The notes under the pieces are model-generated. The model was not told the DNA's origin. It was given only the letters and a program-made list of their open reading frames with translations, and did no database searches. Both the position numbers and the translations under genes were made by a program. Below, in pieces: positions 15,982-34,017 of a stretch of DNA of 64,000 bases (within the stretch, counting starts at the first letter, position 1; each line of letters starts with the position of its first letter). Where the stretch lies: assembly GCF_947623445.1 (NCBI RefSeq), contig NC_135242.1, positions 3,410,001-3,474,000 on the forward strand, in the 5' to 3' direction. This stretch comes from Clavelina lepadiformis. Its lineage: Eukaryota > Chordata > Ascidiacea > Aplousobranchia > Clavelinidae.

Positions 15982-18216
15982 CATTAGTTGTTTAGGAAGG
16001 AGACCATGGTTTAACAGCGTTAAAAACGGAATAATACGAGATTTCTGTACGGAAATTGGTTAAATTCGTCACAGACAATAAGAGTGCTGTGCACGGGTAT
16101 ATGCTGGCATCAGCAAATAGAGAGTTATCTTGCTACTGCAAACGCTTCTTTGCGTTTTCAGTTAATGTGTCGAGTGATAGGTATACAGTGCTTGTCAAGT
16201 GACACTCGCTTAGGCTTAATTCTCACGTGATTCACATCCAGTTACACGATGACGTAATAACGATTATGACAACGGTTTACTGACAGGCAAAAGATCTTGT
16301 GTACCTGCTGTAAGGTTAACAGTATAAAAATGATTTACAAGACATTAAAGACATACCTCATAACACTGAATGCTTCTTCAAACTAGTAGCAACAGAAAAA
16401 ATGTGAAAAAAACGGTAAAAGATTGTTGACCGATCAGTATATAACGATGGCGTTCATGCATGAACGTAAAGTGGCGTCGGGAGAAGCCATATAAAGTAAG
16501 AAATCGGTTGACACGTTGGCAGATTAGATTGTTATTGACTGAAATTTTCAAAATGCGTTTCACAAAGTTTCGATCACTGCAATTGGTTTAGAAAGCAAAG
16601 TTAAAATAATCGTAAATTAAGCGTATATATATTAATGGCATTAAAGACACTTGCTCCTGTTCAATGTAAACGGAAGATCATTTGCCGATATAAGTAAGGG
16701 TTGATTTGCTGGAAGTCGTACCGGCGGACGTTTTTGTCCTCCCTCAAGATTGTGAATCGACCAGTGAACAATTATTCGCTTATAAAATGCCAAGTAGGCT
16801 ATCATGAGATTACACTCAACGCAAGGGAACGCAAACACGTATTATTAATAAAATTCGATGATTTTCGAGCATGTGCTCTATCATATTTGCAGTAATGCAG
16901 CATATTTAAAACAGATACAAAAACATATACTGAGAATCCTAAGCGCTACCAAAACATCAAACTTGTGTTGCAAGTTAGATCTTTGCAAAAAAATGATTTG
17001 AGTTAAATCGAGTCGTTTGACAAATAAGATTCAAGTCAAGTCAGGATTTTAGTTGATATCTTTGGCCAAACAATACAGAAAGCAAAAATACCTTTCCTGT
17101 CAACAACAAAATTTTGAAGAAAGTCAAAATTTGCTTCGTTTTGCTGAAAGCGTTCGTAGGCAAACAAACTTCATTTTGAGTTGCGCTTATGTTTGAACGA
17201 AAGAAAGAAAAGTTTTTTTTAATTCATTTACTTCTGAAACATAATCAATCAGAACTGACTCGAGTCAAGTCAAATTATTTGTTTACGTAGTTTCTTAAAA
17301 AGGGACTCGAGTCAAGTCAAGTGTTTGCAAAAGTTGACTTTTAGTGCCAAGTCATTAGAGGCATAGCATAACTAAAGAGTAAAGACTTTATTAAAGTTTA
17401 GACAAACTCATAGCGGAATTTAAATTATGTGTATGGCATGATTTATGATCTTGTTTGTAATTTGTATAAGCAAGCTTTCATTGGAAAATCCTCTATAGGA
17501 GCTTCAAACGCTCATTACATTAAACCACTGCCCACGCAAATCAGTTTCTGTGTTTGTTTTATTATGACGTCAAAGGTTTGGGCTTGCAAGATTTTGAGCT
17601 TTTATATTTCTTCATAACCCTATATAAAAAAATGCTATGTGCAGTTTACGTTTAAAAATTATATAATACAGTTCAAAAATAACACTTAATTCCGATAATA
17701 CAGCTACGCAATCCTCTTTGTACCTTTAAAATATTTAGCATTGGTGTCGAAATGTTTGTCAATAAATAAGACATACTGTCTACATTTATCGGTATGTATA
17801 CAGCATTATCTTTTTTTAGCAAACTCATTCCAAAATAGCTACTTAATAAAACGAAAATATTTCATGAAATAAAAATAGAAGCTTATTTACAAAAGGCACA
17901 GATGTAACATTCACACGGCCCATTCCAACATGGACCAAACTGTATTTGTATAAATGTATTACACGATCGAATGAAACTTCATAAAGTTATAACATCGCGT
18001 CTATAACCAAAAGTCGCAGCTTATCAGTTTATGTTTTGACGAGACAGGAGGGTACAGACAAGACTATACTCTGTAGTCTGTAGACTATATAGGTGTATAT
18101 AAGTGTACAGGCTTTTTATACTGAAGCAAATTCCATGTTGCAAGACATCGTTTATATGATGTAATTGCCTTTGTTTTTATTTTACAGCTGGTTAATCTTG
18201 ACAAGAACTTATTCAG
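15982..18216. other. Intergenic spacer between the tandem chitinases
   Basis: About 2.2 kb with no supportable exon. The short ORFs (for example 16378-16563 and 16641-16838 minus, 17429-17617 plus) have no recognisable features. The middle, about 16985-17345, holds a degenerate repeat built from CGAGTCAAGTCAAG-like words, annotated separately. The right end should contain the chitinase 2 promoter; the sequence just before 18217 (TTACAGCTGG) may be the end of a 5' UTR intron. Confidence 0.5.
16985..17345. repeat. Interspersed repeat with GACTCGAGTCAAGTC words
   Basis: Three blocks (around 17000-17045, 17258-17278 and 17296-17345) carry CGAGTC..CAAGTCAAGTC. The phrase TTAAAAAGGGACTCGAGTC precedes the last block. 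A reverse-oriented relative lies near 47095-47235 (reverse complement TTAAAAGGGACTCAAGG and GAGTCATTTGACA, compared with GAGTCGTTTGACA here). Two orientations far apart suggest a dispersed element with decayed ends. Family unknown. Confidence 0.4.
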
Positions 18217-23262
<5,046 letters not shown>

Positions 23263-24015
23263 GCATATTGTCGTGACGACAAACCGAGCCGTAATTGTAC
23301 TTGTCGCCCAAATTAATTGATTTTAAATGAATTATGTAATTTCCAAGGTGTAACAAAAGTTGTGTACGTAAATGGTCTTGCCTTGCTTTAATGCCGCAAT
23401 AAAGTAAATCCCAGATCCTTGACTTGGGTTTTGCCACGTTTTACGTCATGCAAGAATTACCAGGTTATGAGGTCATAATACATGCAAACCGGACGTCATG
23501 GTGCAAAGAAAGAAATACGTTAAAAATTTTATGGAAGCTTGAGCGAGTACAAACAGTGTATGGTAAAAATCTTTTCAAAAGCAACGTATGTTTAAAGAAG
23601 GTTAAACTGTCAGGTTATGCCATGTCTATAAAATGCACAAAATGTGGATAGTAATTCATTTCGATTATACCAATTTTACTGACAGAACGCGCAAAACTTA
23701 GACCTTAACCACTCTCTTCTAAACCAAAAAATTATCAAGCTTAGTCCGTTGACCAGAAGAAAAAGAGAAGGTAAAAACTTTCAAAGGCTAACGTAGTCAG
23801 ATTCTAACCCATGAAAGCTTGTCCACTCATGCGTACCAAGAATTCTTCACATGTTTTGAGTTCAATGCACCCCGTTAGAGACAAAAAAGAGTTCAAACAT
23901 GCATTAAGGTTAGCCCAGTGATGTCCAACCCCCCGCCCAGTTAAAAGGTTTCGTTGTTGTGCCTGGTGCTCAGTGATTGATCGTAGTCATTCGTTGTCGA
24001 TTGTAATATACGTGC
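23263..24015. other. Intergenic, chitinase 2 3' end to plakin-repeat gene
   Basis: Contains AATAAA at 23398-23403, 136 bases past the chitinase 2 stop and a plausible polyadenylation signal. The rest shows no exon. The ORF at 23424-23651 plus lacks any family feature. The right part is the presumed upstream promoter for exon 1A of the plakin-repeat gene. Confidence 0.5.
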
Positions 24016-25864
24016 ATGACGATGGATAATTATATCCGCACGCTGGCGCTGATAATACTTTTATGTCGCGCTGAAGCTCTTCAGATTGAATGTGATCAGC
24101 CGATAACGCCGGTCGTAGTCATCAGTATAGTCTGTACCATGGCGGTTATGCTCGTCATTCTATCTATTTATCTGCTATATAATCGCTGCAAGAGTAAAGG
24201 TGAGAACGGTTTAGTTTTCTAGAGAACTTGTCATTACTTTCAATACTTAAATCATTGGTTTTTTTAAAGGATGTTGTGCTGCATTGTGACGTGTCTAGTG
24301 GTTTTGTCACATCACATTGCTTGCGGTTTTACGGTTATCTTGTCCGAGGCTTGTGCTTCAAGCTATATCGTCATAACAACGATAGCGGATCGCGTTGATG
24401 TGTCAAGTACAGTCGCATTGCTTGCAGGCAAAACGTACAGTGAAGTTAAACCTGAGTCATTTAGCTTTACTTTAATGAAAACTTCTTGTTGTTTTTGGCT
24501 TCATTGTAGTGCTTGAGCATGTAGGAAAGTTTGAACAAGTTAATGTGCAGCACGAAACAGTTATTAGGCCGGTTAGCAAACAATTTTTATTACGTCAGAT
24601 AGGAAAGATTACGTCGTTATCAGGGGAACGTTAAGTACCAAGTATGATTGTGATATGGTACCTTCTTTCAAAGAAAAGTAATGTCTCATATTGAACTTTT
24701 GCGTACCTCTGATTCGGCTAGATCTGTTCCTTGAAATGTAAACTAACATCTCTGTAAATTTTTCTCCATGCATTGGTTTAGTTTGAACGTCTTTGTTTGA
24801 AGTTGGTCAATTTGTGTTGGTGTCAAATTTTTTCAGGAGACGATTTTCTTGTTGGGAATATATGTTTGGTGACATTACCTTTTTACGTAATTTAGGTCGA
24901 TTGGTTGATATGCTTGAGTGAATAAAAACTTCCCTCAGAAGGCGCACGGCGGCAATAAGGATCCAGTATTCTAGTCGCTATTTACCGCGCGAATAATGAT
25001 CGATTATTTGTACAACGCAACAATTTGAGTAAGAAAACAGGACATTTGACACGGCGTGCTCGCATAAAATCGTTGTGTGTTTTATGACGAAATAGTCACA
25101 GTGAAAGGGATCTGGGGTTGACGATCGTATTTGTTTACGGATGGCGTTTCGCCAGCCTACGTTTCATGATTTATTGCTTAGGTTACGAGCGTTTTGCAGT
25201 TAAAAGCCTTCTACCTGAGCTTGGCTTTCGTACACGCACAAAAGGTTAAAACTCTATAACAGGCGCGAGTGACTGACGTTGTCTATTTCGCTTTTCTTCC
25301 TTTTGAGATTGTCGTAAGTGTGCAGTTAGCGTGGCCCGCAAAGTTACCTTAGGTCGAATTTAGATGCTTGTTATTAGCAGGCAAAAATTAGCTGCGGACT
25401 TTCAGAACTTATTATATTGCATAAAATTATTTAGCATGGGCATTCATGGAGCGTTAAGGTTAAGTGCACCCGATGCTCAGTTGAGAAACAAAAAGGTTTA
25501 ATTAAAACATTTTCTTATTGAACGATATTAAACCAGCAACCCACAAACCATTGCAGCTAAGCCTCTACTTTCACGTGACAAAGCTCGCAAAACGAGAGAA
25601 AAGGTTTATTCAAAGCAAAAACACCACAACCAGAGTAGATGTAAATATTTTAATTGCAGGCGTTTCGAATAATAACTATTAACTACATTATTATATACTT
25701 ATTCTATATGCAAAATGCAATGCATAATGATAGTAATATGTGACGTTTCAATCTTTAGTAACGTTAGTTAATTTTTCACCATTTCGCTCTTAAGAAAAGT
25801 TCTACTCATGGAAAGGTCGCCTTAACTAATGAAAAGAAAACCTGGAGGTGCCGGGTATCGATCC

Positions 25865-25899
<35 letters not shown>

Positions 25900-26386
25900 T
25901 GTGAGCTACACCCCCGTGACGTTATTCGCTTTCGTAACAAAAATAATCACACCGCCGGTACCTGCCTAGTTCAACTGAAGTTGCTCAGATCAGAGGATCA
26001 GATTTTTATTTCCGAATGACGTAGTGCCCATGAAACAGCTTACTTACCAATCAAACTTAAAAAATACAAATTTAGCAACAAAGCTATTAAGGCTAACGGT
26101 ATTGATTAGCGACAAAATTAGCATCATGCTTTATTGTGCTATAACGAAAACGATTAGCATAGTAATTTTCTCTACCACAGTTAATGGCATAAAATAAAAG
26201 ATGCGATAGTCGGAATATTCTCACGGATTGAGGATTTCAATTAACTATGTAGCCTTCACGTACTCGAAAAAGAAGAGATTCTTATACCGGAATTAGAAGG
26301 CTACAGTTTAAGGCTGTAGGCTATGGCGACAAAGTTTCAATTTTAATGGTTCGCAAAACAAAACTGGAGGTGCCGGGTATCGATCC

Positions 26387-26421
<35 letters not shown>

Positions 26422-26567
26422 TGTGAGCTACACCCCCCTGTCGTCAACCGCTTTCGTAACAAAACAATGACACCGCCAACAATTAGACCATGCTTAAGAA
26501 AAGTCCTAAACTTGAATAGGTTGCTTTATCTAATAAAGGAAAAACTGGAGGTGCCGGGTATCGATCC

Positions 26568-26602
<35 letters not shown>

Positions 26603-29600
26603 TGTGAGCTACACCCCCGTGACATGCTATTGTCATTAATCCTTAATTACTTAACAAAAGATAAATTAACGTGTGATGACAACCTTTTCCATAAACCACT
26701 TGAAATCCCACTTAATCTCGAATGCTGTACTCTTTAATTGGGAGCAGCAGAATTCAACAGCTGTATAAGCAAGTGAAGAAAAAGGAAAGAAACAGGTTTT
26801 GTTTCATAATACAAGGTTTATTATATGAAAGTTAAGCAATTAAATTTCAAAGATATTTGAAAAGTTCATCGCAATTTTCGATGGAAATGTTAGATTCTGA
26901 TTAGGTTGTAAGTTACATTCAACACTTCACACGTGTAATGTTTTCACGCTTCGTTGGCCACGCAAACTGCAATCACGTGACACTTGTCGCTCTTAGTTTT
27001 TTGGTAAACATCATAGCAAAAATGTCTTTATTTTGGTCCATGACCTTTGGAGCTGGTATTCTGGAATTTTTTCTTGATCTGTTCACAATCGCCATCATAT
27101 TTGATGTAATAGCTTTGTTTTTCATGGGAAGGTGTATTTGGAATTGGGGTAAGTCGACCGAAGTACTTGTTGTTGTTTATGGAGGCTCTCTGGTTGTGCT
27201 CTTGGGAAATGTGTTCTGTGTTTGTTTTCTTGTGTGGTGAGGCGCTGTTTGCTAATATTTACTCTGTTGTTCGCGTTCATAAGTAATATTTTTGTTATAA
27301 AGGGATTAACAAAACTTGCGGTTATGATTTTTCATCGTTATTTTATTACAGCAACGCTCCCCAACAATGAGCAGAAGGCGGGATACAGCAATGTCGTCGA
27401 TGTCACTGATGAAACTGGTAAAGAATGGATGACTGTTTCGGAAAATATTTTTAAACTTTGAATTAAGGAAAAATCAGATTAATGTTTCCTTATGGTTTTT
27501 GAAAATGTTGCAAACAGCACAACGAGTATAAAAATAGACATATATACCGTATATATTTACAAATAGAAGTATATTAAAGACGTTCGGTTTATACTTTTTC
27601 TTTGGTGTATGTTTCTTTTAGAAATTTTTAAACATACGTCTCTTGTTTTCAATCGGAGGTTTTTTAAATAGTTTTTTACCTTCACCTAGCCTCAACTTCG
27701 ACCAGCAGAACCCCGATAGTGGTTAAAACATTTGTCAACGAATCTACCCAAACCGGCGACGCAACAACCGAAGAAAAATCGGTAAAATTTCCGCAATGCT
27801 TTCGTTTTCGGAACGCAATCAGTTAAAACAAAAACTCATTATCCGTTCATAATTAGTTTGCTGACTGACGCAATAAAACACCGTTTAACCAATTGTTGCT
27901 TTCTGGTTGCTAGGTCCAAGCCGATCTTGGCAATGTAATGGGCTCGGGTTTAGTTTTCGCCCCCATTGCAAGCACTCACACCGCCACAGCTTTTCTAGAA
28001 ATTAAAAAATCTGGTAGCGACGAAGGGGAAGTACTGGATGGCCCAGTGGGGAGTTCTTCGGAGTCATCGAGTTCAAGTTCAAGTTCTAGTTCAGATGACG
28101 AAGGTGAACTTTTTTTCGCAATATTCTGATTCCTGTTTAAACTAATTTTGCCAGAAAGCGGAATGGGCTAAATTACACCACACACAATCAAAGGAGCCTT
28201 TGCTGGTAATTGCTATCTCTTCAATTTAAGATGCTTGTAAGCCACTGTACCATGTGCACAGCTACCATCACACTTACGAATAATCGCATCAAAGGTGCCG
28301 CCGATTACGCAGTCGGCCGGAACGAATATTTTGTTACTTCAAATCGCGTTAAACTGCTTAATATTTCATCAGAGGACCATGCGACGGTGAAGAAAGAAGA
28401 TGATGGAAAATATGAACAACTTCCACCTCCAGTGGAACCAGAGGTTGAAACGATCGAGCATCAGACGCAAGAGCAAGATCCTCCTCCTGTCAAACGTGGA
28501 TCTTCCCGAGATGAGATTAAATTCAAGTCTGGGTGGAGGAAAACGGTCAAGCTGATGGAACTGGTTCGCGCCAAGTTAATTGAAGAGAAGAAGATTCTCG
28601 AACTCGAACGGGAAGAGGTATGACGTTAGCGTCTTGCGCGTCAACGTTTACAGTAAACGCTTCGGTGATTTTACAAAGCTATGTTCAAAATATTTTGCCA
28701 CGGTTATTAGCTAAGGAACGCTTGTGCTGGTTTCCTTAGGCCTGCTTGACGTGATGTGTTTATTTCTTCCAGGTGAGCCAAGAAGACGTTGAAAAGGAAC
28801 TCAGGCCCTACCTGATTGGCCAGTATCCAATCGCTGGGATCTATGACGACAGAAACGGACAGAAAGTAGCTCTTCTAGCGGCCCATAAGAAGGGCCTCAT
28901 TTCTAGAGGTGGCTGAATGTCTTAGATCCCTCAATTACAAAATATTGATTTTAGTTGAGATATGTTTGCTAACAATTGTCCAGCTATTTGTGTGTTTTAA
29001 AATTTTTCCGTTTCTTTGCGCACCAAACAATTCTCTTTGCGTGCGGTTGTTGTGGTTGATTGATAATAAGGCCTGTATGAGTATCAAAGTGAATCGATGT
29101 GGTCTTGAACAGGCACCGCGATGAGTTTGCTAGAAGCTCAAGCCGCCAACGGGAGCATTGCTGATCCCATGACCGGTCGTCAGATGTCGGTCGATGAAGC
29201 GTTAGAGAACAATTTGCTAGACAGACACTTTGCTTCTGTGCTTGGCCGAGCAGAAAGAGCTGTTCACGGGTACAAATATCGACCTACCGGCGAAGTTCTG
29301 TCGCTGTTTCAAGCCATGAAAAAAGTAAGTAGTTGGCGTAATATGGAATGCTTTCGAGCGAACGAACACTAGACCTAAGACAATATTCCTTTCAGCTTTG
29401 CCATTTCAGAATTGCAATTTAGCGCAGCGCAGCGCAGATCCGATATTCGACTTTGAAACGATAATATTCTGCTCATATGTCTCCTAGTTTGTTTATTTTT
29501 CCCAGAATTAAAAAACGAGTTCTTATTTCAGGGTTTAATCGTCGAAAATCACGGGATTCGTTTACTTGAAGCTCAGATCGCAACCGGAGGAATCATCGAT

Positions 29601-30309
29601 CCCGTCGCTAACATAAGGTTGCCAGTGGAAACAGCTTATGAGAGAGGTATGTATCATGTTTATCTGAGTTTTTTTTCAGTGGGTCGTTGTTATGTAACAG
29701 CTTGGCATTCGTCATCCATTTGTATATCGTGCGCCACCATGCGACGTACGATTTTCTGTTGTAAAACATAACTAAAAAGCCCACAAGCTCTTGCTGAGAA
29801 ACATTGTATTGTCTGCGAAGTCATTAGATTGGCAAATCAATTCCGCTAATTTTAAGTTTGCTGAGAAATTCGCTGCGGCATGCCTAATTGTTTTGGTGAT
29901 TCAAATCACGTGATTTAGGTTTGTTTGATGAAAACCTCCATCGAACTTTGGAGGACCCCAGTGACGACACAAAGGGATTCCTGGATCCAAACACAAATGA
30001 GAATCTAACCTATCTTGAACTGATGCAGAGATGTGTCGTCGATAAGGAAACTGATCTTCATCTTTTGCCGATCGTGAAACCTGAAGATAAACAAAATTAT
30101 AAGCAGCGGTAACTTTTTTCTCATGTTGATTTGCTGAAAAGTCCATTTATTAAATTCAAATCAGACAACCACTACTTGATCGGTTAAGCGCCACCTGAAA
30201 TACCTCTCTCATGATTTTTAGTTCGGCTTCCTTGGCCTCATCTATTCAAGGCAGAATGTCGAAAGAACCTTCGAGAAGAACAAGCACAGCAAGTTCAACA
30301 ACTGACTGA
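24016..30309 (+). CDS. Membrane-anchored plakin-repeat (plectin repeat) protein
   Basis: Ten-exon model, isoform A: 24016-24199, 27352-27417, 27690-27781, 27914-28103, 28262-28617, 28773-28908, 29113-29324, 29532-29646, 29919-30108, 30222-30309, giving 542 residues with consistent phases. Exon 1A encodes a signal peptide ([21 protein letters not shown]), about 11 exposed residues, and a membrane span ([20 protein letters not shown]) followed by a basic stop-transfer (NRCKSKG). The cytoplasmic part has a long Ser run then acidic residues (about residues 165-177), a charged helix ([20 protein letters not shown]), and from about residue 297 to 513 plakin repeats. Key strings are [40 protein letters not shown] and [19 protein letters not shown]. 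The Ser/Arg/Thr-rich tail ends TASSTTD. In desmoplakin and plectin such repeats bind intermediate filaments. A membrane-anchored version without plakin or spectrin domains is unusual. The exon 5 start is the least certain join. Confidence 0.8.
25843..25915 (-). tRNA. tRNA-Ala(AGC), copy 1
   Basis: A 73-nt cloverleaf on the minus strand: acceptor GGGGGTG pairs with CACCTCC, A box TAGCTCACATGG, anticodon loop CTTAGCATG giving AGC (Ala), T arm with GATCGATACC as B box, discriminator A. A T-rich stretch (TTTTCTTTTC) follows as Pol III terminator. It lies antisense in the presumed first intron of the plakin-repeat gene. All three copies share an identical body. Confidence 0.92.
26365..26437 (-). 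tRNA. tRNA-Ala(AGC), copy 2
   Basis: Same 73-nt sequence as the copy at 25843-25915, on the minus strand, followed by TTTTGTTTTG. The DNA 5' of this copy (CGCTTTCGTAACAAAA.. then CACCGCC on the plus strand) closely matches that beside copy 1, so the pair arose by local duplication of a unit larger than the tRNA. Confidence 0.92.
26546..26618 (-). tRNA. tRNA-Ala(AGC), copy 3
   Basis: Third identical 73-nt copy on the minus strand, 108 bases beyond copy 2, with a TTTTT terminator directly downstream. Its 5' flank differs from those of the other two apart from the shared GTGAC next to the gene in copies 1 and 3. Confidence 0.92.
27022..27148 (+). other. Alternative first coding exon (1B) of the plakin-repeat gene
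   Basis: An ATG-initiated exon ends at a strong GTAAGT donor in phase 1, the same phase as exon 1A, so it joins exon 2 at 27352 equally well. It encodes 42 residues with a hydrophobic segment ([20 protein letters not shown]) and a short basic end (RCIWNWG) but no clear cleavable signal peptide. Isoform B would be 523 residues with a signal-anchor. An in-frame upstream ATG at 26938 would add 28 residues. The use of two promoters is inferred from phase compatibility; it could instead be the only real start, with exon 1A a separate small gene. Confidence 0.6.
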
Positions 30310-30823
30310 CATGAACCCATTTAACCAAACCCTTTACAATCATAGACATCTCATATCTATATAGTTTGTTTGCTCAATCTCATTCCGAAATAACCGAAAC
30401 CATAAAACGAAGATTTTAGATTCACAGTTTTCTTACTTTTCTTCTAACTGCTGACGACTTACGGTGGAACATTTTTTAAGTGGGACGCGAGAATGATGTT
30501 TCGCTCTTTTTCTCAAATTTCGCTTGTACTGTATTAACATTAACTGAAACAAACAATGCAATTACCTTGCGCGTGCAAAAAAAAGAATTTATCGAAAATG
30601 GTTGTTGAATGGAGCCGCAGTTTTCTTTTCCTTCATTGCAAAAAGCCGCGAAAGTTTTTGATTTGAAAACTTACAACAGAGTACTGTAGAACAAAGTCCA
30701 GGGCAATTAGTCAAGATTATTTCGTCTTGTTGAGCAAAGCTGCATGATAGGTTTGCATCCAATCAGAGAGAGGCACGCTGTATGACGTGTCTGTGATTCT
30801 GATAACGACGGATAAGATTTGGT

Positions 30824-34017
<3,194 letters not shown>

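Follow-up and report, generated by a model that had tools for sequence, protein, structure and literature searches.

Can a plakin repeat domain (PRD) be fixed to a membrane by a short protein, without the plakin domain and the rod of the giant cytolinkers? The question is raised by a gene at positions 24016-30309 (+) of the window, by which we mean the whole stretch of 64,000 nucleotides of Clavelina lepadiformis DNA that was analysed (C3:3410001-3474000 in a searched genome of 209.1 Mb and 95 contigs). Based on the window and on the rest of this genome, we consider it probable that the gene belongs to a small family, in which one or two PRDs are carried on a short membrane-anchored tail that replaces the plakin rod, and that these proteins act as direct filament-to-membrane tethers.

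The plakin-repeat gene and its domain

The initial annotation had proposed a gene with an N-terminal anchor, a linker and plakin repeats, and these parts were joined in a splice-consistent model of 10 exons. The model runs from the ATG at 24016 to the TGA at 30309 without a frame break and encodes 505 amino acids. All introns are GT-AG, with the nine junctions in phases 1,1,0,1,0,1,0,1,2. The predicted order in the product is signal peptide, transmembrane (TM) helix, Ser/acid-rich linker, one complete PRD and Ser/Arg tail. All exons lie on the plus strand. Exon 1A (24016-24199) encodes a signal peptide as read by eye, an ectodomain of 11 residues with one Cys, the TM helix and a basic stop-transfer sequence, and has a phase-1 donor. 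Exon 2 (27352-27417; juxtamembrane, with a GYSN motif) and exon 3 (27690-27781; linker) were placed both by the splice-consistent model and by a gene finder, and exon 4 (27914-28103) continues the linker with a Ser-rich acidic run. In total the linker, in which Ser and acidic residues are abundant, is about 165 residues long. It ends in exon 5 (28373-28617; alternative acceptor 28262), where the PRD begins with an N-terminal PR-like motif from about 28528. Exon 6 (28773-28908) holds PR-like motif and the first plakin repeat, and further repeats follow in exon 7 (29113-29324; Pfam match 29127-29243) and exon 8 (29532-29646; Pfam match 29562-29651 in the unspliced open frame). The PRD ends at about 30076 in exon 9 (29919-30108), and exon 10 (30222-30309) encodes the Ser/Arg-rich tail and the stop codon. 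Tail to tail with this gene, at about 30800-33060 (-), we observed open reading frames that by eye resemble a cys-loop (acetylcholine-type) receptor.

The gene finder was a simple score of splice sites and codon usage, with codons trained on four long open reading frames of the sister loci described below. When forced to start at 24016 it returned the identical chain with one difference, as it began exon 5 at 28262 and not at 28373. An earlier run with a low penalty over-split the loci even from forced starts and was discarded.

The plakin repeats read by the initial annotation were recovered when the spliced protein was compared with the Pfam Plectin family (PF00681), with four matching stretches and an E value of 4.6e-40. 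Matches of the same protein to TrbL_3, DUF5408 and NADHdh_A3 were below the cut-off and were taken as chance. Among solved structures desmoplakin 5DZZ was the best match (E 2.2e-117; best stretch residues 230-465), followed by 1LM7 (3.8e-69) and then by envoplakin, plectin and 1LM5. According to passages of two structural reports, 1LM7 is desmoplakin PRD-B and 1LM5 is PRD-C (PMC4782060, PMC8745463). Identity of the window PRD was highest to PRD-B (51.5%, 121/235), and lower to PRD-A (39.6%), envoplakin (36.3%), plectin (34.2%) and PRD-C (31.9%). Against the envoplakin PRD chain of 193 residues the match was ungapped over 190 residues, as expected for the 4.5 plakin repeats that make up a single PRD. 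A charged helix, earlier described as a module of its own (around residues 230-273), is present, but it is most likely the N-terminal PR-like motif of the PRD, because this region aligns to desmoplakin.

Sister loci and the putative filament-binding groove

In the whole genome PF00681 was found over the cut-off in at least 28 places, of which the window has 2, a conventional plakin 9 and five other loci 17. The conventional plakin was located by a six-frame search for the plakin SH3 (SH3_10), which gave one match, at C3:5074069 (-), 1.6 Mb from the window; an SH3 split by introns could escape such a search. This SH3 lies upstream of rod-like exons and several PRDs, as in a multi-PRD conventional plakin. 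In its rod, at about C3:5064400-5068800 (-), near-identical exon blocks are repeated, which suggests recent internal amplification.

The five other loci carry stand-alone PRDs. Two lie next to each other on the plus strand of C2, locus a at 4506.8-4518.5k, with PRDs a1 and a2 and a rough model, and locus b at 4519.1-4523.4k. A third, c, is found on the minus strand of the same contig (C2:4537.3-4533.6k). The remaining two, C6a (C6:2358.9-2352.6k, with PRDs C6a1 and C6a2 and again a rough model) and C6b (C6:13969.0-13965.6k), are on the minus strand of C6. In a, b, c and C6a a Ser/acid-rich linker stands before the PRDs, and in C6b the linker is acidic but less Ser-rich. The gene described in the initial annotation is confirmed, and counting it, six stand-alone plakin-repeat loci were detected. 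An unrelated single-exon open reading frame may sit inside C6a. Hydrophobic open reading frames with PPxY/PSY-type motifs and, by eye, a two-TM look were seen downstream of b (C2:4525087-4525581, +) and upstream of c (C2:4541627-4541151, -).

An unrooted tree was built from 17 PRDs, with few vertebrate rows; of the conventional plakin, the third PRD, a rough one, was not included. In this tree a branch with support 98/95 separates the PRDs of the window, a1, b, c and C6b from conv1, conv2 and conv4, three PRDs of that plakin. The partial conv5 grouped with envoplakin, plectin and desmoplakin PRD-C (96/97). Three of the eight stand-alone PRDs were outside the group; a2 and C6a2 paired weakly (81/77) and C6a1 was a long unplaced branch. 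A single founding PRD followed by duplication would account for five of the genes. For C6a, without a PRD in this group, the anchor may have been gained separately.

The function of these domains was considered from the groove. The envoplakin PRD binds vimentin via a groove with six basic residues, as described in a passage of PMC4782060. By alignment the window PRD has two of these six (R353 and R404). Among the sisters, a1, b, c and C6b have three and a2, C6a1 and C6a2 have two, and among the references desmoplakin PRD-B has four, and PRD-C, envoplakin and plectin have all six. Moderately basic grooves of PRD-B are also reported in part of PMC8745463. Partners should be at hand in this animal, as the intermediate filament family gave matches over the cut-off at six loci, a count in which lamins would be included and for which the filament-family model gave matches below the cut-off also in 5 of 14 control genomes. 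Binding of filaments by the window PRD is from these comparisons plausible; it may be weak, and clustering in the membrane might be needed.

An alternative, which we hold to be rather unlikely, is that the proteins bind a partner other than filaments at the membrane, with a scaffold or signalling role for a diverged PRD. The weakly basic groove (2/6) and the acidic character of the window PRD overall (30 K+R vs 38 D+E) are in line with this, and so is a PDZ domain in paralog b, at C2:4520682-4521062 (+) between the TM exon and the PRD. This PDZ is periaxin/AHNAK2-like, with E values of 8.1e-12 and 1.3e-9 against the periaxin and AHNAK2 structures 4CMZ and 4CN0, and its match to Pfam PDZ was below the cut-off (E 0.0023). 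However, the whole domain of the window protein is well conserved, including the PR-like motif, and the PRDs of the conventional plakin in the same genome have similar groove counts (2, 3 and 2 of 6, and 3 for the partial conv5). We therefore keep filament tethering as the preferred reading, and the PDZ of paralog b may allow the proposed family to reach other membrane partners.

Anchor-like first exons and the upstream neighbourhood

The hydrophobic stretch of exon 1A has 19 residues with a mean Kyte-Doolittle (KD) value of 2.98, a measure of hydropathy only, and is followed by a donor with a score of 10.7. The signal peptide, as read by eye, is likely cut after AEA. The first exon of paralog b has the same layout; the likeness is one of layout, as a search of the genome gave no significant sequence relative for exon 1A. 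When exons 1A and 1B, the latter being an alternative candidate first exon, were used to search the genome, they found themselves and one weak match (E 2.63), and exon 1B found only itself. Basic residues follow the TM segment in the TM-type anchor exons. The basic side of a TM segment faces the cytoplasm by the positive-inside rule, and the PRD would accordingly be predicted to be cytoplasmic.

At all six detected stand-alone PRD loci we found a first exon that is anchor-like and has a phase-1 donor. It is of TM type, with an ATG, in the window, a, b, C6a and C6b, and the weakest of these is that of C6b (KD 2.01, donor 7.6). The scan for TM exons used thresholds of KD 1.9 and donor 7.5. Its control was 374 kb of strand out of the 528 kb given by both strands of the window and of a further 200 kb, and contained two phase-1 TM exons, one in phase 0 and none in phase 2; a control stretch added from the strand of the conventional plakin gave one more phase-1 match. 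In the upstream intervals of five PRD loci, 20.0 kb in total, there were six phase-1 matches, two of them in the window, and an extra phase-2 donor for exon 1B, and at the control rate 0.11 phase-1 matches would be expected in these five intervals. The Poisson chance of six matches is 2e-9 (3e-6 at the upper bound of the control rate) and that of a match in 5 of 6 loci is 2e-8 (1e-5 at the upper bound), figures that are guides, since thresholds and intervals were chosen after the candidates had been seen. Near the loci the first TM scan also gave less marked hydrophobic frames, whose donors were weak, in other phases or missing.

In the 4.5 kb before c the TM scan gave no match. Reading the 5' end of c by eye, we saw a first exon of Cys-Cys/polybasic type, encoding MSFLLGCCGGRKKKKRGKKQK and ending in a phase-1 donor with a score of 11.2. 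This looks like an anchor by palmitoylation and a polybasic run. In 528 kb of strand (264 kb, both strands) the one exon of this type was that of c, found with a pattern that was defined after the exon had been seen. The window gene and its five sisters all combine an anchor-like exon ending in a phase-1 donor, a Ser/acid linker, less Ser-rich in C6b, and a PRD.

Exons 1A and 2 are 3.15 kb apart, with three tRNA genes between them. These are tRNA-Ala(AGC) genes found with Rfam, antisense in intron 1 at 25843-25915, 26365-26437 and 26546-26618 (all -), and their Rfam scores are identical. Exon 1B (27022-27148, +) is nearer, 203 bases from exon 2, and encodes a hydrophobic segment (KD 2.44) before a phase-1 donor with a score of 9.4. 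The protein might therefore start here, at 27022 or with the longer start at 26938, and exon 1A would then belong to another transcript, or the two exons would be alternatives as in dystonin; the protein would still be membrane-anchored. At the control rate only about 0.02 exons like 1B are expected in that 4.1 kb. Read from 27022, however, the segment of exon 1B contains Glu/Asp, and the signal peptide, the ectodomain and the basic run of exon 1A and paralog b are absent from it. The gene-finder score from exon 1B was also slightly lower than that from exon 1A (110.0 vs 117.6). We regard a start at exon 1B as rather improbable, and exon 1A as the preferred first exon.

If neither anchor exon is used and the start is elsewhere, the product would be a cytoplasmic stand-alone PRD protein similar to epiplakin, in which PRDs occur without a plakin domain (as stated in part of PMC8782857). 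The unforced gene finder agrees with this in so far as it skipped the anchor exons, choosing none of them as start in the three loci (window, b and c). In b it preferred the tail exons of gene a (180.5 vs 162.9) and in c a start further upstream. In the window it joined chitinase exons to exon 2 (146.2, vs 117.6 from exon 1A), a join that we rejected, as the chitinase ends in an exon of its own with a complete CBM_14 domain and a stop. Against a soluble protein speak the anchor-like first exons with the same donor phase at 6/6 stand-alone PRD loci and the strong splice sites in the window, and we think that only a small chance is left for it. A membrane-anchored product is the reading we continue with.

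The chitinase is a GH18 gene with CBM_14 exons at about 18000-23262 (+) of the window, and ends about 750 bases before exon 1A; the stop of its last exon is at 23260-23262. When the plus strand from 18000 to 27352 was compared with Pfam in three frames, with E values up to 0.1, we found GH18 and CBM_14 only, and no plakin or spectrin domain. The 505-residue model and this strand gave no Pfam match either to a plakin domain (SH3 with spectrin repeats) or to a coiled-coil or spectrin rod. The absence of plakin domain, spectrin repeats and any other rod, as first annotated, agrees with these searches, with the conventional plakin found elsewhere and, most strongly, with the like plan of the five sister loci. 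The initial annotation had itself raised the possibility that the repeat exons form the end of a larger plakin of conventional type. Known plakins have their PRDs at the C terminus of giant proteins, and an intron-split SH3 could be missed by the six-frame search, which covered SH3 genome-wide; this reading is unlikely, to the point of being nearly negligible, because a chitinase with its own stop (23260-23262) adjoins directly upstream and the one detected plakin SH3 is separate, 1.6 Mb off on the other strand with PRDs of its own.

The proposed tether and known plakins

If the gene is expressed as modelled, the signal peptide would target the protein to a membrane, whichever this may be, which it would cross once, leaving outside the 11 residues with one Cys. 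This single outer Cys, also present in b, could pair two chains. The linker of about 165 residues and the PRD-B-type domain would be placed in the cytoplasm, where the PRD would grip an intermediate filament by its coil. The linker would serve as a flexible spacer, with a charge that could be altered by phosphorylation, and binding could be adjusted by the Ser/Arg tail. Filament and membrane would in this way be tied directly, with neither a desmosomal plaque nor a giant cytolinker between them.

For the family as a whole we suggest, with our confidence equally divided, that PRDs in the lineage of this tunicate were released from giant plakins and gave rise to a family of proteins that tether intermediate filaments directly to membranes. 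The anchor module would have been swapped at a fixed phase-1 intron, giving a TM segment in five genes and a lipid-type Cys-Cys/polybasic anchor in one, with a periaxin/AHNAK-type PDZ added in one TM gene, so that each membrane or cell type could have its own rod-free, plaque-independent tether. If true, the sister group of vertebrates would have a minimal version of the machinery that links intermediate filaments to membranes. It would mean that PRDs can work alone and would provide a small construct with which the requirements of a PRD for holding filaments under load could be tested. It would also bear on the attachment of filaments to membranes in chordate epithelia apart from desmosomes.

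Known links between intermediate filaments and membranes are made by large rod plakins together with plaque or integrin complexes. Among the matches listed from the open-licence literature on plakins, anchors and tunicates, we found no TM-anchored PRD protein, and the available parts of two surveys that touch the subject contain no mention of a protein with an anchor and a PRD (PMC5620054, PMC9145010). The architecture had been called undescribed. This holds in so far as a short protein joining an anchor directly to a PRD was not found among the matches listed from the open-licence literature, and it is new only within that scope; a TM plakin isoform and a plakin without plakin domain are each known.

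In desmoplakin a plakin domain and a coiled rod come before the PRDs, and no TM segment is known. Its PRD-B (1LM7; the second domain of 5DZZ) is the closest to the window PRD, and desmoplakin has two further PRDs. We know of no PRD in periaxin or AHNAK; the likeness to their PDZ (4CMZ, 4CN0) lies in paralog b and is absent from the window gene model. Envoplakin has a single PRD, together with rod, plakin domain and linker, as given in passages of PMC4782060. The single PRD is common to envoplakin and the window protein, but the envoplakin PRD has 36% identity to that of the window, a fully basic groove and groups with C-type PRDs. In Ciona, the gene Cirobu.g00006733 ('plectin/desmoplakin/epiplakin') is enriched in the ACCs of the papillae, according to part of PMC7397655. 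It is a tunicate plakin relative.

To our knowledge, dystonin-a2 has no complete PRDs. This isoform of BPAG1 has an N-terminal TM domain, and isoform a3 a putative myristoylation motif; dystonin-a2 is described as a spectraplakin that has actin-binding and plakin domains and connects perinuclear membranes with actin and microtubules (part of PMC3352338). The window protein has in common with it that a plakin-family protein begins with a TM segment (here with a hydropathy of 2.98 over 19 residues), and differs in that no CH or plakin domain follows, as judged by Pfam in the model and the plus strand upstream. Of an anchor in epiplakin we are not aware. Epiplakin has multiple PRDs without a plakin domain and is reported in part of PMC8782857 to be absent from Ciona intestinalis. 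The window protein stands outside the epiplakin plan, and carries one PRD with an anchor exon in place of many PRDs that are unanchored.
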